DNA of 54,134 nt from a virus: IMG/VR virus record IMGVR_UViG_3300027749_003795, positions 1 through 54,134 of that record, one strand, 5' to 3'. The position numbers and the translations under genes were made by a program. Numbering within the stretch: position 1 is the stretch's first letter; each line of letters begins with the position of its first letter. The notes below the pieces were generated by a model, which was not told the DNA's origin, did no database searches, and was given only the letters and a program-made list of their open reading frames with translations. Positions 8,643-51,328 of this stretch are shown one piece after another.

Positions 8643-11600
8643 ATGAAACTTGCTATTATAGACATAATTGGTATACCGTACGATGGTAATACCGTAGATA
8701 ATCAAGGACTAGGTGGTAGCGAAAGTGCAGTTACCCTTATGTCCAGAGAACTTAATAATATCGGGTTCTCTGTTACTGTTTTTAATAATTGTGGAATCGA
8801 TCATGCACGTTCTGGAAATTTTAACGGAGTAGAATATCGACCACTCAGTGATCTAGCGTTAGATCACGAATTTGATATCGTTATAAGTTCCAGAACAATA
8901 ATACCTTTTACCAAACCTGAAGACTATCATAGATTAGGTGATGGAAGAGCTATGCCCTTCCAAAGTATGAATTTATATGATAGAGTAGTTAGTCAAGCCA
9001 AAATGCGTATATTGTGGATGCATGATACATTTTGTCTAGGTGATAATCTCATAGAAGAGCTTGCAACCGCAAATCGTATCACTGACATCTTTACTCTTAG
9101 TGATTTTCATTTAACTTATGTAGCTAATTGTAATCACGGCCGCCGTCGTAATTTTGAAGTATTAAAACGTAAATTGTTTATCACACGTAACGGGGCTCAA
9201 AACTTTAAAACAGAAGTTGATATAAACGCTAAAGATCCTAACTTGTTTGTTTACAATGCAAGTGTAACTAAAGGAATGGTTCCTTTAATTCAACAGATAT
9301 GGCCCCGTGTTAAAGCACATATACCTAGTGCTAGATTAAAAGTTATAGGTGGATACTATAGATTTAGTGAAAGTTCAGAACCCGATCAACAAGAAAAAGA
9401 CTGGCGAATAATGTCCGTTGATCCACGTAATCAAGAATTGGGTATAGAATATACAGGTGTTATATCTCAAAAAGAAATTGCCGATATACTCACCGAATCT
9501 AGTTTTATGATATATCCTTCAGTTTTTCCAGAAACATTCGGAATATCATCGCTAGAAAGTCTATTGTACAATACTCCTATTATCACGTGTAGATTTGGTG
9601 CATTAGAAGAAATTGCGTTAGAAGGTGCATGTTATCTAATGGATTATGCCATTGAACCTAACGGATTATTTCCTGATATAAACACTACTGAACAAGTTGA
9701 CAAGTTTGTAAATTTAACAATACAAGCATATCATAACAAGTATCTACATCAACAAAAACAATACTACTGTAATATTGTCAAAGACATCGCAGGATGGGAT
9801 GGTGTTGCTCTACAATGGAAACAGTTCATGGTATATAAACTAGGCAACTATTTGTCAAGAGATGAATATCGTGCTGTATCAAAAATTAATTGTAGAGTAC
9901 ATAAAGTTTGGAATAGAAGATTTACTAATACAATCGAACTAGAAAATTATAAATCTGGTAATGAACAAAGTATAACAATAATTAGCCCTTTCTATAATTG
10001 TGCCAATTATATATCTCGTTGTATAATAAGTGTAGCATCTCAGGATTATGATAATTATCAGCACATTTTAATCGACGATGCAAGTACCGATAATTCCATC
10101 GAAGTTATATTAGCAACATTAAAAGTTTTGCCTGAAGATATTAGAAATAAATTTACTGTTATATCTAACCGTGAAAATTTAGGAGCAGTTAGGAATCAAA
10201 TACAAAATATTAGAACCCTGATAAGTGATGATAACATAGTGATGTTGCTTGATGGTGACGATAGTTTAATTAATGACAATACTGTGTTATCCTATTACAA
10301 TTCTATATATGATGGTACTACAGAATTTACATATGGCTCATGCTGGAGCATGGTTGACAATATTCCTTTGATTAGTCAGCCGTATCCTGAATCAGTAAAA
10401 CAAAATAAATTATATAGAAATCATCACTTCAATTGGATATTACCCTATACACATTTAAGAACATTTAAAAAGAGTTTGCTCAATACAATTAACGACGATC
10501 AATTTAAAGATTTAAATGGTAATTGGTATAAGGCAGGTGGAGACGGAAGTGTATTTTATGCTTTGATAGAAGCCGCAGATCCTAACAAGGTAAAATGTAT
10601 AACAGATGTTGTATATAATTACAACGATGCAAGTCCATTAAATGATTATAAAGTTAATGGAGATGAGCAAAATAAAAATGCAAGAGAGATAGTTAATAAA
10701 ATGAATCAACAAAAAAAAACGATACTTATAGCAATACCAACAGCTAAAAATATTGAGCCGGATACATATAAAAGTATATATGACTTAATAGTACCCGATG
10801 GATATGAAACAACATTTCAATATTTCTTTGGATATAATGTAGATCAGGTACGCAATCTAATTGCAGACTGGGTTGTTAAAGGTTATGATTATCTATTCTC
10901 AGTAGATAGTGATATTGCATTTGCACCCGATACACTATCTAAAATGTTAGCACATGATCGAGATGTTGTGAGCGGATTATATATACAAAGAAAACCGGGG
11001 CAACATATTTTAGAAATATACGAACATACTCCAACTGGTGGAGTTGTAAATATGCCTTATGGAAAATTAAAAGGCAGACCATTGGTAGAAGTTGCAGGGT
11101 GTGGGTTTGGGTGTGCTCTTGTTAAAGCAGAAGTTATGCGTAAAATAGGATATCCCCAGTTTAAATATCATAGTGCTATTAGCATAAATGATACCGTATC
11201 CGAAGATGTTGATTTCTGTAGAAAAGCAAGAGACAATGGATTTACAATTTGGGCAGATCCTAGCATATTATGTAGACATACAGGAAGTTTTACATTTAAT
11301 GTAGATACTGCTATTCCAGTAATAAACACAACATCCGAAGTGATCGATATTAAACAATTTTTAAGAGCGCTACGTGATCCATATCCATTTCCTCCTGACC
11401 ATATAGAATATCTAAACAAACTAAAAAATGATGGAGTAGATCCGATGGTAATATATGATGTAGGTGCTTGTGTATTACATTGGACTGATAGGGTTAAAAC
11501 AATTTGGCCCGAAGCCACAGTAATTGCGTTTGAAGCAGCAGATGTACATGAATTTTTATATCAAGAAGCAGGAATACAATATCATATAGGGGTATTAAGT

Positions 11601-12014
11601 GATGCAAGTGGCAAAGAAGTAAACTTCTATCAAAATGATAACGCACCAGGCGGCAATAGTTATTACAGAGAAAATGCAGAGATACAACCAGCAGCCGCAC
11701 ATTTATATGCAGACAAATATTTAAGAAAACTTAGAACCATTACCTTGGATGCCATAGTAAATCTTAAAAAATTCCCTCCACCTGATTTAATTAAAATGGA
11801 TGTGCAAGGTGCAGAACTGGATGTTCTCAAAGGTGCTCAGGAAACTATTAAAACAGCCAAGCATATTATATTAGAATTACAAATAGTAGAATATAATAAA
11901 GGTGCTCCTTTAAAAGATACAGTTATTGATTATATGGATTCAATAGGCTACGATTGTTTAGGGCTGTTTAGTAATAATGGTCCAGACGGGGACTATCATT
12001 TCGTGCGTAGATAA
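8643..12014 (+). CDS. Four-domain glycosyltransferase/FkbM methyltransferase
   Basis: An 1123-aa multidomain enzyme. Residues ~1-410 look like a GT-B glycosyltransferase (GLGGSESAV near the N-terminus; YPSVFPETFGISSLESLLYN, the donor-binding EX7E-type region). Residues ~440-690 are a GT2-type GT-A domain (ITIISPFYNCANYISRCI, DDASTDNS, LLDGDD). Residues ~692-905 are a second GT-A-like domain (ILIAIPTAKN, FSVDSDIAF as the DxD motif, CRHTGSF). Residues ~935-1123 are an FkbM-type methyltransferase (YDVGAC, AFEA, IKMDVQGAELDVLKGA). Such fused proteins are known from large phages and modify virion proteins or surface glycans. Directly following the fibre genes, it may glycosylate and cap fibre sugars; that role is inference. 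Confidence 0.85.
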   Translation: MKLAIIDIIGIPYDGNTVDNQGLGGSESAVTLMSRELNNIGFSVTVFNNCGIDHARSGNFNGVEYRPLSDLALDHEFDIVISSRTIIPFTKPEDYHRLGDGRAMPFQSMNLYDRVVSQAKMRILWMHDTFCLGDNLIEELATANRITDIFTLSDFHLTYVANCNHGRRRNFEVLKRKLFITRNGAQNFKTEVDINAKDPNLFVYNASVTKGMVPLIQQIWPRVKAHIPSARLKVIGGYYRFSESSEPDQQEKDWRIMSVDPRNQELGIEYTGVISQKEIADILTESSFMIYPSVFPETFGISSLESLLYNTPIITCRFGALEEIALEGACYLMDYAIEPNGLFPDINTTEQVDKFVNLTIQAYHNKYLHQQKQYYCNIVKDIAGWDGVALQWKQFMVYKLGNYLSRDEYRAVSKINCRVHKVWNRRFTNTIELENYKSGNEQSITIISPFYNCANYISRCIISVASQDYDNYQHILIDDASTDNSIEVILATLKVLPEDIRNKFTVISNRENLGAVRNQIQNIRTLISDDNIVMLLDGDDSLINDNTVLSYYNSIYDGTTEFTYGSCWSMVDNIPLISQPYPESVKQNKLYRNHHFNWILPYTHLRTFKKSLLNTINDDQFKDLNGNWYKAGGDGSVFYALIEAADPNKVKCITDVVYNYNDASPLNDYKVNGDEQNKNAREIVNKMNQQKKTILIAIPTAKNIEPDTYKSIYDLIVPDGYETTFQYFFGYNVDQVRNLIADWVVKGYDYLFSVDSDIAFAPDTLSKMLAHDRDVVSGLYIQRKPGQHILEIYEHTPTGGVVNMPYGKLKGRPLVEVAGCGFGCALVKAEVMRKIGYPQFKYHSAISINDTVSEDVDFCRKARDNGFTIWADPSILCRHTGSFTFNVDTAIPVINTTSEVIDIKQFLRALRDPYPFPPDHIEYLNKLKNDGVDPMVIYDVGACVLHWTDRVKTIWPEATVIAFEAADVHEFLYQEAGIQYHIGVLSDASGKEVNFYQNDNAPGGNSYYRENAEIQPAAAHLYADKYLRKLRTITLDAIVNLKKFPPPDLIKMDVQGAELDVLKGAQETIKTAKHIILELQIVEYNKGAPLKDTVIDYMDSIGYDCLGLFSNNGPDGDYHFVRR

Positions 12015-31481: not shown

Positions 31482-32410
31482 AAATTGAATATAAATCACA
31501 ACCATTAAAACAAAACTGGGATCAAGTGTTACCAAAATATTGGTTTGATAATAGTCCATTTAAAACTCATTTTATGAATGCACTTAGTATAATGATACCT
31601 GTTTCTGAATTGGTAGTAATTCATACATTAAAAGAAACACAGAAACATTTACAAGATACTGAATTAAAAAATCAAATCAATGATATGATTGCTCAAGAAA
31701 ACTGGCATAGTTATTCACATAAAAAGTATAATTTTTGGTTGGAAAGTATTGATTTGCCTTCTTTTGAATTATCTTCAAAATGGTTAGTTAATTTAACAAA
31801 TGCTAAAAAAAGAGCAGATAAATTATTAGGACCTGTTTTTTGGCTTCCAGTAATTGTTGCTGGTGAACATACCGCAGTTTGTTTTTTAGAATACATATTA
31901 GAGCGTCCTTATCTACTAGAACAGATGCATCCACATTTTAGACAAGCATGGGTATGGCACAGTCTAGAAGAACTTGAACATAAAGGTACTTCCATGGATA
32001 TGTGGATTGATACTAAAGAAAAATTTAATCGAAAAAAATGGAAACTCAACCTGGCTCATATTATTCAAGGTATTAGATTTCACTCAACTGTTATACAATA
32101 TACATTTACTTTTTTAAATAGAGACAAACAACTGTGGAAATGGCGTACTCTTAAAGATGGTATGAGTTTCTTTTTTGGACTTGATGGTTTATTTTGGAAA
32201 ACTGTAGTACCTTGGTGTTCATTGTTTAAAACAGATTTTCATCCTTGGAATCATGACACCAGGTATTTGTTTGATCGTCATCAAAAGATTTTTGAAATTT
32301 CAAATATTTCATCAGAAAGATTAAAAGAAATCGAAGAGGACTTTCATGGATGTGTTGCTGATATGGAAACTATTATTGCACAAAATAATACCAAAGTAAC
32401 TGTGATATAA
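31478..32410 (+). CDS. Predicted metal-dependent hydrolase (PF10118/COG3687-like)
   Basis: A 310-aa helical protein with a ferritin-like set of Glu/His ligands: VSELVVIHTL, QENWHSYSHKKYN, AGEHTAVCFLEYIL and WHSLEELEHKG. This arrangement matches the predicted metal-dependent hydrolase family PF10118, found in proteobacteria and thought to be di-iron proteins. The substrate is unknown. It lies in an AT-rich cluster with an oxygenase-like gene and was probably acquired from a bacterium as an auxiliary metabolic gene. Confidence 0.75.
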   Translation: MKIEYKSQPLKQNWDQVLPKYWFDNSPFKTHFMNALSIMIPVSELVVIHTLKETQKHLQDTELKNQINDMIAQENWHSYSHKKYNFWLESIDLPSFELSSKWLVNLTNAKKRADKLLGPVFWLPVIVAGEHTAVCFLEYILERPYLLEQMHPHFRQAWVWHSLEELEHKGTSMDMWIDTKEKFNRKKWKLNLAHIIQGIRFHSTVIQYTFTFLNRDKQLWKWRTLKDGMSFFFGLDGLFWKTVVPWCSLFKTDFHPWNHDTRYLFDRHQKIFEISNISSERLKEIEEDFHGCVADMETIIAQNNTKVTVI

Positions 32411-32413
32411 AAA

Positions 32414-32998
32414 ATGTCATTTTATCATAAAATAAAAAATTATTTAAGTCCTACTCCATTACATATTGAAGAACCATTCCTTTGGAAATATGTTGATATT
32501 GATAGTGAATTAGTTGATGAAATTAAAGATATATATCTAAAAAAATTAAAAAAGAACTTACAAGATTATGAATTTTTTCAGATACTAAAAATTAAAATAC
32601 CAAATGTTGGAGGTCAAAAAGTAATAGGTGCAGGCCTTGCGGTATCAAAGGGTAATTATATACAGAAATATTGTCACAAGGATACCATAGATACTAATGC
32701 TTCTTATTATGCTTTAAACATTCCACTTCAAAATTGTGAAACCAGTGAAACGAATTTATATAATATTAAAAAAAATAAGTCAGTTTTATATAGTTTATAT
32801 GGCAGAACAATGCCGGGTGCTAGTATGGCCGAAATTGCAAAAGTTGTCGAGTGTGATGTGATTGCAACTTATACATTAGATCGACCTTTAATATTCAATA
32901 CTCAAATCTTTCATTCTGTAAATAATTTCAGTTTTGAAACTAGGTTAGCTATCAGTCTAAGATTTGATAACAGTGTAACACCTGATACTTTTAATTAA
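32414..32998 (+). CDS. Possible 2OG-Fe(II)-type oxygenase
   Basis: A 194-aa protein. YCHKDTIDT offers an HxD, and FNTQIFHSVNNFSFETRLAISLRF has the distal His and the Arg/Ser that bind 2-oxoglutarate in HxD...H...R enzymes; the beta-strand ending LAISLRF is typical. The match is suggestive rather than firm. Coupled to the preceding di-iron protein by a 3-nt gap. Alternative: a cupin-fold protein without this activity. Confidence 0.5.
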   Translation: MSFYHKIKNYLSPTPLHIEEPFLWKYVDIDSELVDEIKDIYLKKLKKNLQDYEFFQILKIKIPNVGGQKVIGAGLAVSKGNYIQKYCHKDTIDTNASYYALNIPLQNCETSETNLYNIKKNKSVLYSLYGRTMPGASMAEIAKVVECDVIATYTLDRPLIFNTQIFHSVNNFSFETRLAISLRFDNSVTPDTFN

Positions 32999-33018
32999 AG
33001 ACGTGAATCCTATTTTTG

Positions 33019-33047
33019 TTGACAAACTTAAAGAATAAATATATACT
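33019..33047 (+). promoter_or_regulatory. sigma70-type promoter of the tmRNA gene, with embedded late element
   Basis: TTGACA (33019-33024), 17-nt spacer, TATACT (33042-33047); expected start ~33054. A late element AATAAATA lies within the spacer at 33034-33041, so the gene could be expressed in both phases. Confidence 0.75.
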
Positions 33048-33119
33048 GTAAGCAATAGTTGTAATTCCTTCAAAGAGGATGTGTTCAAGAAGCCGGTTCG
33101 AATCCGGCCAGGTCCACCA

Positions 33120-33181
33120 TAAGAACATAAATTTACTATGGTATTCCGTATAAATTTACTTTGGTATTGTGTTTTTATGAT
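33120..33181 (+). other. Intervening segment between tmRNA halves
   Basis: AT-rich spacer joining the 3' and 5' halves of the permuted tmRNA. In two-piece tmRNAs this segment is removed by processing, leaving acceptor and coding RNAs. It contains a near-perfect 19-nt direct repeat. Confidence 0.8.
33127..33168 (+). repeat. 19-nt direct repeat in the tmRNA intervening segment
   Basis: ATAAATTTACTATGGTATT (33127-33145) is repeated at 33150-33168 with one mismatch (A to T), separated by 4 nt. It may reflect slippage duplication or an RNase-processing determinant. Confidence 0.85.
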
Positions 33182-33268
33182 GGGCCTGCTCTGGTAATCG
33201 ATTGGGCAAATAGTCAGCGACGGCAACTCGGTAGGCGATGACCGTTAATCAAGCAAATCAAACTAAAG

Positions 33269-33301
33269 GCAAACGACGAGTTATATTCCATGGCCGCTTA
33301 G
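33269..33301 (+). other. tmRNA tag reading frame ANDELYSMAA*
   Basis: Ten sense codons and TAG. The ANDE opening matches canonical proteobacterial tags; the end is SMAA instead of the usual ALAA. The resume codon GCA follows CTAAAG. The final Ala-Ala is retained, as needed for ClpX recognition; Met replaces Leu at the third position from the end. Confidence 0.9.
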
Positions 33302-33343
33302 GCTTTGGTGAGGTAGGAAATACCTTATTACCAAAACAACCAG

Positions 33344-33368
33344 AACCCGCTTCGGCGGGTTTCTTTTT
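33344..33368 (+). terminator. tmRNA terminator
   Basis: AACCCGC-TTCG-GCGGGTT hairpin followed by TCTTTTT. Confidence 0.9.
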
Positions 33369-33410
33369 GATTCTTGTAAACTTTTTGTTGTGCTACCGCG
33401 TTATATATAT

Positions 33411-34148: not shown

Positions 34149-35036
34149 ATGAAAAAACTTGCAATATTTGCATTATCAATCGGTCTTATGGGATTCGCCC
34201 AAGCCGATGTCTCCGTTTACGGAATGGCTCGTGTCTATGAAGAATCATCTACTGTTGGCACAGCAGCATCTGTAACATCTTTAACCAATGACAAAAGTCG
34301 TATCGGCTTCAAAGCATCTGATGCTATCGGTAATGGGTTAACAGCATTTGCCGTTGTTGAAACCAATGTTGGTGTAGATGCTCCAGCGGCCAGTAGCCTT
34401 GGTGATCGTACTGCCGTTGTTGGACTATCACACAAGATGGGATCAATTGGTTTTGGACGTGACAAAACTGCTCTAACTAAATCACTTGACGGCTTTGATG
34501 CTATGGGTGGTGATTTGTTTGGATCTAGTGCGGCCGCTATCCATTCTTATCAAGGAACACGTTTAAGCAATGCAGTATTTGTATCTGCCCCAATTGTTCA
34601 GGGACTTACAGGTAATTATGTAATGTCTAACAGTGAAGTTGCCGGAACTGCAAATCCTCAGTCTCTCAGCCTAGTATATTCTACAGGCCCTGTAGGTGTT
34701 ACTTATGCTCGCTTTGACAATGGTTCAACCAGCGTAAGCGATGCAATTGGTGCTAAGTTTGAAATTGCTAAAACAGGTACAACTGTTTTTGGTCTATATT
34801 CTGACAATAAAGTAGCTAATGTAACCAGTCAAGGTAAGAGCATGGGTGTTACTCAAACTGTAACTCCAGCTCTATCCGCAATGGCCAGTTATGGTGAGAA
34901 CGGTGGTCTTAAGGCTTATAACCTAGGTGCTAATTATGCACTAGGTAAAAGTACTAAAGTATTGGCTCGTTACTTGAAAGAGACAGCAGCCACAGATACC
35001 ACACGTTATGGTGTTGGTCTAGAATACAATTTCTAA
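34149..35036 (+). CDS. Outer-membrane general porin (Burkholderiales type)
   Basis: A 295-aa beta-barrel porin: signal peptide MKKLAIFALSIGLMGFAQA, first strand DVSVYGMARVYEES, the SRIGFKASDAIGNGLTAFAVVE and GSIGFGRDKT signatures of Gram-negative porins, alternating beta strands throughout, and C-terminal GVGLEYNF with the terminal Phe required for BAM insertion. It is shorter than typical host porins (~350-400 aa), mostly in loops. It has its own sigma70 promoter, TAAGGA and terminator. A phage-encoded porin may replace the host receptor to block superinfection or alter permeability; that is inferred. Confidence 0.9.
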   Translation: MKKLAIFALSIGLMGFAQADVSVYGMARVYEESSTVGTAASVTSLTNDKSRIGFKASDAIGNGLTAFAVVETNVGVDAPAASSLGDRTAVVGLSHKMGSIGFGRDKTALTKSLDGFDAMGGDLFGSSAAAIHSYQGTRLSNAVFVSAPIVQGLTGNYVMSNSEVAGTANPQSLSLVYSTGPVGVTYARFDNGSTSVSDAIGAKFEIAKTGTTVFGLYSDNKVANVTSQGKSMGVTQTVTPALSAMASYGENGGLKAYNLGANYALGKSTKVLARYLKETAATDTTRYGVGLEYNF

Positions 35037-37534: not shown

Positions 37535-37929
37535 TGGAAGGCAAGATAACACTTATTACGCCCCCGGACGTTTTTGAAAACGAATCTTATAGCATTCTTT
37601 TTATACATTTAAGTGAGGCAGATCAAGAGTCTGTTAGTCGTTGGTTATCAACTACTGATATAAAAGAAAATATTAATATATATTTTTATTCCGGAGAAAA
37701 CGATTTAACATGGTTTTTTCATGCTATGGCCATCTCCGAATATAAGTACATTAACCTAGATGGATTAAATAACATTAGCTCTATTTTAAATGGTTATATA
37801 TTAGGTAAGAAAAATACTTATTATAAAACTTCCGATGAAAATGTATCAGCAGTTTGTCATTATATTAATCAAAATAGAATCACTGATATAGAATCATTCT
37901 TAAAGAAAGCATTTAATGACAAAACTTAA
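37534..37929 (+). CDS. Unknown protein upstream of clpX
   Basis: A 131-aa soluble protein (MEGKITLITPPDVFENESYS, NINIYFYSGENDLTWFFHAM, SEYKYINLDGLNNISSILNG). Alternating beta-alpha elements resemble a Rossmann-like domain conserved in T4-like marine phages. TAATG overlap with the previous gene and 14-nt overlap with clpX imply co-translation; it may act with ClpX but nothing else supports this. Confidence 0.7.
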   Translation: MEGKITLITPPDVFENESYSILFIHLSEADQESVSRWLSTTDIKENINIYFYSGENDLTWFFHAMAISEYKYINLDGLNNISSILNGYILGKKNTYYKTSDENVSAVCHYINQNRITDIESFLKKAFNDKT

Positions 37930-39148
37930 AGATCATCACGCCTGTGATTTTTGTGGAAAAAGTAAAGAGGATGTAGAAAAATTAATTGTTGGAGAACATG
38001 CTGCTATCTGCAATGACTGTATTAATCTCTGTAATGATATTCTAATTGATGAAAAAATTAAAGTACCATTAGAAAACTCTAAATTATTGAATCCTGTTAA
38101 AATTAAAGATTATCTTGATGACTATGTAATAGGACAAGATGATGCTAAGATTGCTTTGAGTGTAGCAGTCAGCCAACATTTTAAACGTATAAACAATCCT
38201 AGTCCTGATATAGAAATTGAAAAGACCAACGTGCTTATGCTAGGTCCAACAGGCTGTGGTAAAACTATGATGGCACGTAAGATTGCGGATTATTTAGATC
38301 TTCCCTTTGCTATTTGCGATGCCACAGGTATCACAGAAGCAGGATATGTAGGAGATGATGTTGAAAGTATACTTACACGTTTAATAAGTGAAGCAGATGG
38401 TGATTTAGAAAAAGCAAGTCGCGGTATCGTATACATTGACGAAATTGATAAAATTGCCAAAAAAGGTGAAAGTACCAGTATTACTAGAGATGTCAGCGGA
38501 GAAGGTGTACAGCAGGCATTGTTGAAAATGATTGAAGGTAGTATTATGAGAATACCTGCTACCAGTAAGAGAAAACATCCTGGCGGAGAAATGCAGGAAA
38601 TAGACACCAGGGGTATATTGTTTATATGTGGTGGTGCATTTGTGGGTATTGATAAAATTATTAAACACCGTACGGATGCTAAATCTGTTGGTTTTCATGC
38701 CAACGTAAAAAACAGTGAAGATGATACATCGGTATATAAAGAATTAAATACCAAAGACTTAATTAAGTATGGGTTGATTCCAGAGTTTGTTGGACGCTTT
38801 GGACTAATCATCAACGTTGAAGAACTCAAAGAAGAACAACTTGTACAAATTTTAGTAGAAACAAAGAATAGTCCAATCAAACAATATCAATACATGTTTA
38901 AATTGGATAAAATTAAATTGGAATTTGATAATGATTCATTAAAAGAAATCGCTGCCAAGGCCAAAGAACTCAAAACCAATGCTCGTGGATTAAAAAATAT
39001 TATAGAGAAGATACTACTACCCTATCAATTTGATGCTGTTGAACTTGTAGAACGCGGTTTATCATTAATTCGGATAAGTAAGAATACTGTGAATGGCGAT
39101 CAGGCCATTATGATTTTTGATAAAAATAAAAATGAGCAAACCAAATAG
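37916..39148 (+). CDS. clpX: ClpX, ATP-dependent unfoldase of ClpXP
   Basis: A 410-aa complete ClpX: N-terminal zinc-binding domain with C10, C13, C32, C35 (CDFCGKS...CNDCINLC); Walker A GPTGCGKT (110-117); pore loop GYVGDD; Walker [12 protein letters not shown] loop in [15 protein letters not shown]; sensor/arginine-finger region [10 protein letters not shown]. The ClpP-docking loop is VGF (in SVGFHANV), so docking to host ClpP looks possible. ClpX unfolds substrates, including ssrA-tagged ones. No clpP is seen in the window. It overlaps bS21 and lies about 5 kb from the tmRNA. Encoding a second ClpX suggests altered substrate choice, which is inference. Confidence 0.95.
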
Positions 39149-45973: not shown

Positions 45974-46185
45974 AAACGGTTACCTTATATATAGATGCCT
46001 CAAGAACTATGGAAATAGTTCGTGAACTTAGACAACAAGGAATGATACAAGGTACAGACTTTGAGTTTACCTACGTGAGCTCCACGGAACATATCATGGC
46101 AAAAGCACCTATGCCAAGACATACAATCTTTGCTTTCCACACAGACAAATACGCTACTTTCTTTGCACTTAAATACTCTATATGA
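45970..46185 (+). CDS. Tandem-family small protein ending FFALKYSI
   Basis: A 71-aa protein read from a TTG that overlaps the previous stop (TTGA) and has GAGGT upstream. RTMEIVRELRQQGMIQGTDF and IFAFHTDKYATFFALKYSI show the family ending in modified form. ATGA-coupled to the D,D-peptidase. Confidence 0.65.
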   Translation: MKTVTLYIDASRTMEIVRELRQQGMIQGTDFEFTYVSSTEHIMAKAPMPRHTIFAFHTDKYATFFALKYSI

Positions 46186-46991
46186 AAAACTTCTTTATTA
46201 TATTAATGATGTTTGTAACATCTGCCTACTCTGCTACAACAGGCTCTTATGCGTTATATGATTATAGTTCTGCTAGTTATGTTGTAAGATACAATCACAT
46301 AGAAGTTCGTAGTATTGCCAGTATTACAAAATTATTCACTGCAATAACAGTATTGAATAGTGGAGTTGATCTTAATGAAAAAATCTACATAGATGGTCGT
46401 AGTGCAGGACATGTTATAAGAGGCACATATATGACTCGTATGGATCTTATGCGGGCTATGATTATTACCAGTGACAATAGAGCAGCAGAAACACTAGCCT
46501 ATCATCATCTAGGTGGCTTTGATAAATTCTTATTTGATGTTAATAACTATGTAAAAGATATCACATTAGAGAATACTACAATTGTAGACAGTACTGGTCT
46601 CAAACCGGGTAATCGCAGTACTGCCCGTGAACTTATAGAATTTTTATATCGTATTAAAGACAATCCAGTAATACGTAAAATTGCTCATGAACGTAATATG
46701 GTTTTAAAAGTACCCAAGGGTAAAAAAACTATTACAATTAATCTAAGAAATACAAATCCAGATCTATTTGTATATGATAACATCTTAATTAGTAAAACTG
46801 GATTTACCAATCCTGCTGGCCGATGTGTACTTATGTTAGTGGAAAAGAATAATGAATTATTTGGAGTAGTTGTTCTTGGACAAACTAATGTCAAGAATCG
46901 TAGCCATGTAGTAGAAGACCTACTAAGTATTGATGTGGAACCTACTCTTATACCTAAAATAAGTAGTACATTAGAATTTAATATTGAATGA
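46182..46991 (+). CDS. Exported serine D,D-peptidase (S11/PBP7-like)
   Basis: A 269-aa penicillin-binding-type enzyme: signal peptide (MKNFFIILMMFVTSAYS), SxxK at S47-K50 (SITK), SxN at 97-99 (SDN) and KTG near 205-207 (ISKTGFTNPAG). The compact size, without the extra C-terminal domain of DacA-type enzymes, fits PBP7/8-like D,D-endopeptidases. It would cleave peptide cross-links of periplasmic peptidoglycan. In a phage it may loosen the wall for lysis or growth; no endolysin is identified nearby, so it could contribute to lysis. ATGA-coupled on both sides. Confidence 0.9.
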   Translation: MKNFFIILMMFVTSAYSATTGSYALYDYSSASYVVRYNHIEVRSIASITKLFTAITVLNSGVDLNEKIYIDGRSAGHVIRGTYMTRMDLMRAMIITSDNRAAETLAYHHLGGFDKFLFDVNNYVKDITLENTTIVDSTGLKPGNRSTARELIEFLYRIKDNPVIRKIAHERNMVLKVPKGKKTITINLRNTNPDLFVYDNILISKTGFTNPAGRCVLMLVEKNNELFGVVVLGQTNVKNRSHVVEDLLSIDVEPTLIPKISSTLEFNIE

Positions 46992-47284: not shown

Positions 47285-47365
47285 ATGCACGATATACCTA
47301 TATTGGATATCTTATCGGGCATAATGCCCAAACAAATCTTACTTAATTTAAAGGAGAAAAAATGA
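47285..47365 (+). CDS. 26-codon leader ORF overlapping dnaK start
   Basis: The ATG lies at the predicted sigma70 transcription start and the frame ([12 protein letters not shown]...) runs through the leader hairpins to a TGA that overlaps the dnaK ATG (ATGA). It could be a leaderless leader peptide that opens the hairpins and couples translation to dnaK. The downstream AAAGGAG serves dnaK itself. Speculative. Confidence 0.4.
47317..47329 (+). promoter_or_regulatory. Leader hairpin GGGCATAATGCCC of dnaK
   Basis: Self-complementary element ~33 nt before dnaK, preceded by a GATAT/ATATC hairpin (47291-47311). A near-identical element precedes hsp20 at 49304-49316, followed in both by CTTACTT...TTTAAAGGAGAAAA. 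Confidence 0.65.
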
Positions 47366-49263
47366 GTAAAGTAATCGGTATCGACCTTGGTACCACAAAT
47401 TCATGCGTAGCCGTTATTGAAAATGGTATCCCTAAAATCATCGAAAACAGCGAAGGTGCAAGAACTACTCCTAGTATTATTGCTTACGCTAACGATGAAA
47501 TCCTAGTAGGTGCTAGTGCAAAACGCCAAGCAGTTACTAATCCAAAAAATACAATCTATGCAGCCAAACGCTTAATTGGACGTAAGTTCAAAGAGCAAGC
47601 TGTACAGAAGGATATTGATCTAATGCCCTACAAAATCATTGAAGCCAACAATGGTGATGCTTGGGTAAGTGCAAATAATCAAGAACTTGCTCCTCCACAA
47701 ATTTCAGCTGAAGTTCTTCGAAAAATGAAAAAGACCGCCGAAGACTATCTCGGTCACGAAGTTATACAGGCTGTTATTACTGTACCTGCTTACTTCAATG
47801 ATCAACAACGTCAGGCAACTAAGGATGCTGGTAAGATTGCTGGACTTGAAGTTCTACGTATTATCAACGAACCAACAGCAGCCGCACTCGCTTACGGTGT
47901 TGACAAGCAAGATAAACGTGATCGCAAGATCGCTGTCTATGACTTAGGCGGCGGTACATTTGACGTAAGCATTATTGAAATTGCCAACGTTGATGGCGAT
48001 AAACAAATCGAAGTACTAAGCACTAATGGTGATACATTCTTAGGTGGTGAAGATTTTGACCAACGTATTATGGATTACTTGGTTGATGAATTCAAGAAGG
48101 ACAACGGTGTTGACCTCAAGAAGGATATGTTGGCACTCCAGCGTTTGAAAGAAGCCGCTGAAAAAGCCAAGATTGAATTGTCGAGTTCTGCTCAAACAGA
48201 TGTTAACTTGCCTTACATTACAGCAGATGCAAGTGGTCCTAAACATATGAATGTTAAGTTGACTCGTGCTAAGTTAGAGCAATTAGTTGAAGAACTAATT
48301 CAACGTAGTATTGAACCTTGTAAGATTGCTATGGCAGATGCCAAGGTTACTGCTGGTGACATTGATGAAGTTATCCTTGTTGGTGGTATGACACGTATGC
48401 CAAAGGTTGTTGAAACAGTTGAGAAACTATTTGGCAAGGCACCACGTAAGGATGTTAACCCAGACGAGGCAGTTGCCGCTGGTGCTGCTATCCAAGGTGA
48501 TGTATTAGGTGGTGGACGCACAGACGTTCTATTACTAGACGTTACTCCATTGAGCATTGGTATTGAAACAATGGGCGGTGTAATGGCCAAGTTGATTCAA
48601 AAGAATACAACTATTCCTACCAAACATAGTCAAGTGTTTAGTACGGCCGAAGACAATCAACCTGCTGTAGATATCAAAGTATTCCAAGGCGAGAGAGAAT
48701 TTGTCCAATACAATAAACTATTGGGCGAATTCAAATTGGAAGGTATTCCACCATCACGTCGTGGTCAACCTCAAATTGAAGTTACTTTAGATATCGATGC
48801 TAATGGTATTATGAATATCAAGGCAGCAGACAAAGGTACCGGCAAAGAGAATAAGATCACAATTAAATCTGATAGCGGACTCAGTAAAGAAGAAATTGAA
48901 CGTATGGTTCAAGATGCCGAAGCTAATGCTGAATCGGATAAGAAACAACGTGAGCTCATCGAAGCACGTAATGGTGCAGAATCCACATTAAATGATTTCC
49001 AGTCTGATATCAACAAGTATAGAGATCAAGTTACTGCTGAAGAAAAAGCCAATGTTGATGATGCAGCTCAAGCTATACGTGATGCTATAAAAGGTGATGA
49101 TGTTAAGATCATCCAAGACAGCGTTCCAAAACTATACGAAGCAATGGGTCCAATTACTGCTAAAAAGTCCGAAGAGGAAGAAGCAGTAAAGAAAGCCGAA
49201 GAACAGGCTAAGAAAGATGCGGAAGACGGCGTGGTTGACACAGAAGCTAAAGAGACTGTATAA
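47362..49263 (+). CDS. dnaK: DnaK (Hsp70) chaperone
   Basis: A 633-aa full-length Hsp70: [14 protein letters not shown] at the N-terminus, phosphate-binding [26 protein letters not shown], adenosine motif [13 protein letters not shown], the linker [19 protein letters not shown], a substrate-binding beta domain and helical lid, and an acidic tail ([14 protein letters not shown]). All ATPase motifs are intact. It folds and protects proteins with DnaJ and GrpE, not seen here, so host partners are probably used. It is expressed from a dual sigma70/late promoter with a structured leader shared with hsp20. A complete phage-borne DnaK is rare. Confidence 0.97.
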
Positions 49264-50142: not shown

Positions 50143-50688
50143 ATGAGTTTAAAAGATTTAACTGCTGACAAACATCAGCAAGCAGAAGATACCCTATTCA
50201 TGAAGGCAGTGTTTGCAAAGACATTGCCTTTTGATATTTGGGTGGACTTCACATACCAGAAGCAACTTTGGTATAAAGAAATTGAACATGCTGCGCGGGC
50301 AGCAGGATTGTTAAATGCGTTCCCTGCAGGCTTCGAACGTGCAGGATTAATCATGGATGATTACGAAGCCATGGATAAACCTATAGGAAGTTTCAATACT
50401 TATAAAGAACAAACCAAAGAGTATGTTAGTTACATAAGAACATTAGGTGATCCTACTCGTATTATGGCACATCTTTATACTTGGCACATGGGCGATCTAC
50501 ATGGCGGACAAATGATTAAGAAAATTGTGGAAGCACCACACTCACATTTAGAGTTTGAAGATCGTGCCGAGTTAATTAAAACTGTACGTACCATGCTGTC
50601 AGACGAAATGGCCGTTGAAGCCAACATAGCCTTTGAATGGGCAATTAAAATAATGGAATCATATGACAGCAGTTTGGGACAAAATTGA
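50143..50688 (+). CDS. Heme oxygenase (biliverdin-forming)
   Basis: A 181-aa HO-fold protein: LTADKHQQAED with the proximal heme ligand His11, a helix around FDIWVDFTYQKQLWYKEIEH, and the distal-helix signature LYTWHMGDLHGGQMIKK (GDLxGGQ). HO opens heme to biliverdin, CO and iron, using host ferredoxin-type electrons. It is followed by a bilin reductase with a 26-nt overlap, so biliverdin is probably passed on to make a bilin. T4-like cyanophages carry ho1 with pebS; here the neighbour is of the PcyA/PcyX type. Confidence 0.9.
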   Translation: MSLKDLTADKHQQAEDTLFMKAVFAKTLPFDIWVDFTYQKQLWYKEIEHAARAAGLLNAFPAGFERAGLIMDDYEAMDKPIGSFNTYKEQTKEYVSYIRTLGDPTRIMAHLYTWHMGDLHGGQMIKKIVEAPHSHLEFEDRAELIKTVRTMLSDEMAVEANIAFEWAIKIMESYDSSLGQN

Positions 50689-51328
50689 AGAACTAGCTAA
50701 AAAGTTCGAGGACAAATTTAATGCTACCGGTGAACCAATAGCAGGTAATTTAGATTACGAGTGGCATAATCAACTTTGGTCAAGTCTTCGATATCGTAGA
50801 GCACATATAGAAATTGTAGACAATAGAGAAAGTCACAATATATACATTCTACATTGTACTGTATTTCCACATTTCAACGACTCTAGTCCTATTTTTGGGT
50901 TTGATGCTGTATGCGGTCCAAACAAAATTACAGGTGCATTCTGCGATTATAGTTCAGCAGGTGATAGCACACATCCTATGATGCGTTGGTTTGCCAACGA
51001 AGGACTATATTATAATTGGGAAAAAAATAGAAACCTTCCTGAGTGGGCTAGCAGTATATTCAGCCCTGCAATGGTTGCTGCGGGTAATGTCAGAACAGGC
51101 GAAGAATTAGACAATTTATGTGAATTAGCACTACGTACATTGGATTATTACTTAAAAAACGTAGGAAATACGCAACAAGATCTAGCAGATTATCACATGG
51201 CACAGAATCGTTATTGTCACTATCAAAAACAGAATCCACACGTAATTAAAAGTATGGTTAGTATGGGTGTGGAAGAAAGTAAAATGCGTCGGTTTGTCAG
51301 CGAAGTCCTGTTTCCAGAAGTAGTATAA
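50663..51328 (+). CDS. Ferredoxin-dependent bilin reductase (PcyA/PcyX-like)
   Basis: A 221-aa protein. HIEIVDNRESHNIYILHCTV, the central SSPIFGFDAVCGPNKITGAF and CDYSSAG, and the C-terminal CHYQKQNPHVIKSMVSMGVE follow the ferredoxin-dependent bilin reductase pattern, including the Asp of FGFD near the bilin. PcyX enzymes, described from uncultured marine phages, convert biliverdin to phycoerythrobilin. Substrate range cannot be read from the sequence. Overlap with the heme oxygenase gene supports a two-step pathway. The product in a non-photosynthetic host could feed phytochrome-type receptors, an inference. Confidence 0.85.
   Translation: MTAVWDKIEELAKKFEDKFNATGEPIAGNLDYEWHNQLWSSLRYRRAHIEIVDNRESHNIYILHCTVFPHFNDSSPIFGFDAVCGPNKITGAFCDYSSAGDSTHPMMRWFANEGLYYNWEKNRNLPEWASSIFSPAMVAAGNVRTGEELDNLCELALRTLDYYLKNVGNTQQDLADYHMAQNRYCHYQKQNPHVIKSMVSMGVEESKMRRFVSEVLFPEVV

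Follow-up and report, generated by a model that had tools for sequence, protein, structure and literature searches.

A circularly permuted tmRNA gene on a probable giant-phage fragment, and an apparent cargo slot in the intervening segment of its relatives

The tmRNA locus and its neighbourhood

tmRNA is the RNA that rescues stalled ribosomes. We analyzed a stretch of 54,134 bases (the window), which is an entire virus record and carries phage-type genes including those for ribonucleotide reductase and virion structural proteins. At positions 33054-33368 it holds a complete tmRNA gene in circularly permuted form, with the 3' acceptor half preceding the 5' half on the same strand (Table 1). An earlier note on this DNA had proposed a phage-encoded two-piece tmRNA of this kind, and a check of the sequence recovered every element described there, from the P2 helix and the intact ANDELYSMAA tag frame to the promoter and terminator that bracket the gene. 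The acceptor strands, GGGCCTG and CAGGTCC in the DNA, pair at all seven positions (7/7), including the predicted G-U third pair, which is the G3-U70 alanine identity pair. Promoter-like sites as a class are not above chance frequency in this region, where TTGACA-17-TATACT ties for the best match. The phage origin also stands, as the source is a virus record and close relatives have the same gene.

Table 1. Positions of the tmRNA elements and of the linked clpX gene in the window
Feature	Position	Strand	Basis
Sigma-70-like promoter TTGACA-17-TATACT, predicted start ~33054	33019-33047	+	11/12 consensus match only; not evidence of function
3' half (acceptor piece): P2 strand, T-arm, 3' acceptor, discriminator A, encoded CCA	33054-33119	+	RF04321/RF01850 alignment, sequence
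P2 outer strand GUUGU, pairs with GCAAC at 33223-33227	33058-33062	+	cmscan structure line
T-arm GCCGG-UUCGAAU-CCGGC	33092-33108	+	sequence, cmscan
3' acceptor strand CAGGUCC, U70 opposite G3	33109-33115	+	sequence, cmscan, relatives
A-CCA after the 3' acceptor strand	33116-33119	+	sequence
Intervening segment (IVS): non-coding, 62 nt, with an 11-bp closing helix that lengthens the acceptor stem	33120-33181	+	sequence, fold, relatives
Tandem duplication in the IVS: 19-nt repeats ATAAATTTACTWTGGTATT at 33127 and 33150, 23-nt spacing	33127-33168	+	sequence
5' acceptor strand GGGCCUG	33182-33188	+	sequence
5' half (mRNA-like piece): GGGCCUG acceptor, D-like region, P2, PK1, tag, 3' hairpin region	33182-33345	+	sequence, cmscan
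Tag frame ANDELYSMAA*, GCA resume codon to TAG (GCA..GCT-TAG)	33269-33301	+	ARAGORN
Intrinsic terminator, hairpin GAACCCGCTTCGGCGGGTTT and T-run CTTTTT	about 33343-33370	+	sequence
Phage ClpX, 410 aa, full-length	37916-39148	+	Pfam; NCBIfam equivalog, 522 bits against a cut-off of 359; PDB ClpX, E 5e-122; sequence

Searches with Infernal against Rfam and with ARAGORN had been proposed as a check, and the permuted models match far above threshold. When all Rfam families were scanned with cmscan, the window gave two matches only, both over the whole model: beta_tmRNA (RF01850; 143.3 bits against a gathering threshold of 84, E 7e-44, 33005-33364) and tmRNA_permuted (RF04321; 113.5 bits against 47, E 2e-21, 33057-33301, positions 1-213), to which the T-arm and tRNA-like domain fit. 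RF01850 is the sole clan match that remains after removal of overlaps, and the alpha subtype RF01849 was not the window's best match in the clan. ARAGORN reports the permuted form, tmRNA*, at 33027-33392 with the tag ANDELYSMAA. The locus is confirmed as a real and correctly identified permuted tmRNA gene.

The gene resembles the betaproteobacterial two-piece tmRNA described by RF01850, with which P2, PK1 and the resume context align. It differs in encoding CCA where the beta consensus reads ACC-cAAG, and in an IVS that is longer than that of the model and contains a tandem repeat. The same half order and an encoded CCA are found in the phage-encoded permuted tmRNA of the Methylophilales phage Melnitz (MZ577097; PMC9004378), in whose IVS, too, a closing helix (arms TAAACAC/GTGTTTA) continues the acceptor stem. 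However, the Melnitz gene is alpha-type (RF01849, 106.7 bits) whereas that of the window is beta-type, its IVS measures 142 nt against 62 nt, and a glutamine riboswitch lies downstream in place of the terminator. At the Melnitz locus (L424, MZ577097 45780-46436), the IVS contains a 41-codon frame that is open into the 5' half.

Phage tmRNAs are on record: tmRNA together with SmpB was noted in huge phages in 2020 (PMC7162821), 53 of 133 phage tmRNA structures were reported as two-piece in 2022, 50 of them aquatic and Melnitz among them (PMC9004378), and a tmRNA database of 2025 includes 79 sequences from phages and 11,946 of permuted form (PMC11915505). Since two-piece tmRNAs of phages were already published, the guarded suggestion of the earlier note that a permuted version on a phage is rare and may be undescribed falls. 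The most unusual aspects of the locus are its IVS and the linked phage ClpX, both absent from that note.

ClpX is the unfoldase that reads tmRNA tags. Unlike Melnitz, the window encodes it near the tmRNA, 4.6 kb downstream, and the protein contains what we take to be the motifs of a ClpX, namely a zinc finger, Walker A (AAA+), the GYVG pore loop, the RKH loop and the VGF ClpP-docking tripeptide. All of the shorter records that have both genes (8/8) show clpX on the strand of the tmRNA, 3.6-5 kb downstream of it; these records are related to each other, and the arrangement is therefore the synteny of one clade. In several larger phages ClpX is far from the tmRNA or absent, so that the proximity is limited to the near clade of the window, and several encode ClpX and/or ClpP elsewhere. 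A search of 28 related records, any of which may be incomplete, gave no SmpB; the set includes G036, with no RF04321 match, and G038, with a sub-threshold one, in both of which our script finds permuted tmRNAs. Because SmpB was not found in these records, the phage tmRNA presumably uses host SmpB, and as the window encodes none its function would depend on the host.

Other genes of the window include one for a gram-negative porin just downstream of the tmRNA (34149-35036; Porin_4, 1.4e-21; PorB-like start), a D-alanyl-D-alanine peptidase-like protein (46182-46991; Peptidase_S11, 2.7e-30) and a phage DnaK of 633 aa (47362-49263; NCBIfam equivalog, 968 bits). A heme oxygenase followed by a phycocyanobilin:ferredoxin oxidoreductase-like bilin reductase is encoded by overlapping ORFs at 50143-51328.

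Related tmRNAs and the proposed function

Relatives of a 1123-residue protein, encoded at 8643-12014, occur in 409 stretches of viral contigs. Of 32 related virus records, 16 gave RF04321 matches, and in a further set of 12 large records 10 scored above the cut-off. Because related records with a permuted tmRNA reach 364 and 383 kb and several of the large ones have a terminase, the window is probably a fragment of a giant phage. Its origin is presumably freshwater, an assumption from general knowledge of this tmRNA type and not a computed result. DNA searches of a phage collection with the tmRNA of the window and that of one relative returned short, irrelevant matches only. Two scans of a bacterial genome collection for the host gave no match; the second is uninformative on this point because it demanded that CCA be encoded, which is not the case in the beta consensus.

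Using DNA patterns and a script that required the acceptor stem, G3-U70 and the T stem, we collected 218 unique permuted tmRNA genes from the viral contigs of IMG/VR. Relatives were also found by a pattern on the 5' side only, with the 3' side left free. Here, 104 of 105 cases with a detected T-arm gave 7/7 acceptor pairs and G3-U70; no T-arm was found in a further 18 cases. The acceptor types vary in a compensatory way, as GGGCCTG, GGGGATG, GGGCCAG, GGGCCGG and others each occur with their own complement. For some relatives, unlike the window, the best model is alpha. CCT is encoded instead of CCA in 26 of the 218 genes, in which the CCA must therefore be completed after transcription; these ACCT-ending genes (L083, L087, L088, L093, L096 and 21 others) mostly have a very short IVS of 23 nt. 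Tags were called in 190 genes and comprise 125 distinct ones, although some listed tags begin too far upstream because the calling is imperfect. Most have 10 residues, start with Ala and end in L/M-A-A, with LAA (152) prevailing over the rarer MAA (19) of the window.

We consider it very probable that the window carries a working phage ssrA gene, circularly permuted, whose product tags stalled chains, and that the excised segment of its relatives is a modular slot. Host RNA polymerase would make one precursor from about 33054, RNase P would cut before G33182, and tRNA 3' processing would mature the CCA at 33119. This would release the 62-nt IVS and leave a two-piece tmRNA joined by the acceptor stem and P2. 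Charging by host AlaRS via G3-U70 and delivery to stalled ribosomes by host SmpB would then allow ANDELYSMAA to be appended to the stalled chains, which ClpXP would unfold, plausibly with phage ClpX docked on host ClpP.

Alternatively, the RNA might have its main role not in tagging but in competition with host tmRNA, from which it would withhold SmpB, AlaRS or stalled ribosomes. Phage DS6A has a tag-less tmRNA-like RNA for which inhibition of endogenous tmRNA has been reported in E. coli (PMC11915505), and the lack of a phage SmpB among the 28 records would fit such a role. However, the tag frame of the window is intact and the Ala start and the usual tag end are kept across the 125 distinct tags, a conservation that a pure decoy would not need. 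We therefore regard competition as unlikely and favor tagging.

The intervening segment and its protein-gene cargo

The acceptor strands and IVS of the window fold into a single long hairpin (-32.7 kcal/mol, z -6.5), and the 23-nt unit that is duplicated in it occurs as a single copy in the IVS of L226. Among relatives with an IVS of at least 24 nt, the two ends of the segment pair with each other, and the resulting helix is stacked onto the acceptor stem across ACCA/NGAU. This closing helix has at least 6 uninterrupted bp in 83% of them, against 8.6% of shuffled sequences. Its register is common to 162 of 193 genes, with alternative Watson-Crick pairs at its positions. What lies between the arms is hypervariable and travels separately from the body of the tmRNA. 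Thus, the IVS of the window recurs at 94-95% identity on the divergent bodies of L082 and L146 (95% against a body identity of 62% for L146), and L228 and L371 share 95% of the IVS and 58% of the body. Conversely, the window and L084 are 93% identical in the body and 58% in the IVS. Judged by these comparisons, IVS content is exchanged between tmRNA bodies in the manner of a modular slot. Non-coding IVS of L157, L161, L182, L213, L222, L141 and L120 contain T-arm-like hairpins of the GGTTCGANTCC type, some of which sit inside a larger tRNA-like stem.

We also considered a regulatory role for the non-coding IVS of the window, for instance as an antisense RNA against the 5' UTR of the gene that lies upstream, since the segment has a 13-nt perfect complement at 32387-32399, upstream of the ORF at 32414-32998. 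When 62-nt segments were drawn at random from the window, 10% had such a match; being no rarer than that, the match led us to reject the antisense role, and a regulatory IVS is very unlikely.

In relatives the IVS can hold a protein gene. In searches without selection for ORFs, an ORF filled the IVS in 20 of 140 unique genes, and in 16 of these 20 the stop codon ended exactly 1 nt before G1. ORFs ran from wall to wall in 20 of the 22 IVS of at least 117 nt, which shuffled sequences rarely matched. Together with a targeted search, in which CCA had to be followed by a ribosome-binding site and ATG, the total came to 63 unique genes with an ORF-filled IVS and 42 unrelated protein families (L397, L339, L168, L195, L228, L173, L204, L193 and about 55 more loci). 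The ORFs start 6-14 nt after CCA, 42 of the 63 have their stop 1 nt before G1, and a ribosome-binding site precedes 59, partly through the selection in the search. In 13 of 13 loci tested, one Rfam tmRNA model bridges both halves over the ORF. The cargo includes a thioredoxin (PF00085, 4e-21; L397) and a DUF2061 protein (4e-20; L168), while most cargo proteins had no confident match in Pfam or PHROG. The resemblance of the L173 cargo to Tpt1 is below threshold and that of L228 is a GNAT-like look only; neither is claimed.

It could be argued that these ORFs are assembly chimeras or chance open frames, given that all loci come from metagenome assemblies and that the targeted search chose its start signals. 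The unselected searches, with their exactly placed stops, and the known protein families among the cargo argue against this; moreover, several ORFs recur in independent contigs, and three of four comparable cargo pairs are under purifying selection (pN/pS 0.13-0.21), the fourth being too similar to judge. We consider artifacts even less likely than a regulatory IVS and take the ORFs to be genuine cargo.

The closing helix itself takes part in the layout of these genes. Its 5' arm, TAAGGA..., is the ribosome-binding site and pairs with the 3' arm, which encodes the frequent cargo C-terminus VSL. With the ribosome-binding site directly next to CCA and the stop in most cases next to G1, the segment leaves little room for a promoter or terminator of its own, and cargo ORF and tmRNA most likely lie on a common transcript. 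Across the wider family, the excised slot would be swapped between bodies, often with a small gene that may be translated from the site in the 5' arm. From this layout we think it likely that the IVS is an exchangeable cargo slot across a large group of aquatic giant phages, with whole protein genes that sit between CCA and G1, share the promoter of the tmRNA and have a ribosome-binding site paired with the 3' arm. Maturation would then excise a mini-mRNA and translation of the cargo would compete with tmRNA folding; the window would represent the non-coding version.

The L309 cargo has homologues only in four Melnitz isolates within the phage collection searched, and there outside the IVS: Melnitz gene 85 ends 3 nt before the annotated tmRNA. 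The same gene is thus located outside the tmRNA in one phage and inside it in another.

Relation to known insertions and significance

Removable segments that can hold other sequence are known from tmRNA genes, namely group I introns with homing endonuclease genes and IVS of permuted tmRNAs with tRNA-Ala or a repeat element (PMC11915505). The IVS of the relatives, not that of the window, differ from these in holding ordinary small protein genes of 42 unrelated families, and their removal is expected to occur by tRNA processing in contrast to the self-splicing of group I introns. In the literature covered, to which subscription journals largely do not belong, we found no account of protein-coding genes within the IVS of a permuted tmRNA, and the use of the IVS as a cargo slot is apparently undescribed so far. 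tmRNA genes are also common integration sites of mobile elements (PMC9004378, PMC11915505), but a nonfunctional remnant, either a fragment captured from a host or the scar of a prophage attachment, is the least credible reading, since the gene is complete, has its own promoter and terminator, and is kept in related large phages, where its structure covaries and its tags are numerous and diversified.

Permuted tmRNAs of phages were known; what appears to be new is the cargo-bearing IVS of the family to which the window belongs. An RNA for ribosome rescue is encoded by giant phages themselves, in some together with a matching unfoldase that reads its tags, and the pair of phage tmRNA and ClpX would give the phage a hold on quality control and proteolysis in the infected cell. 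The IVS, usually seen as waste, appears in relatives as a parking place for whole genes, and if this is true the maturation of a stable RNA would also release an mRNA. The cargo layout is directly testable; in Melnitz, which is in culture, the homologue of one cargo gene adjoins the tmRNA on its upstream side and does not lie inside it.
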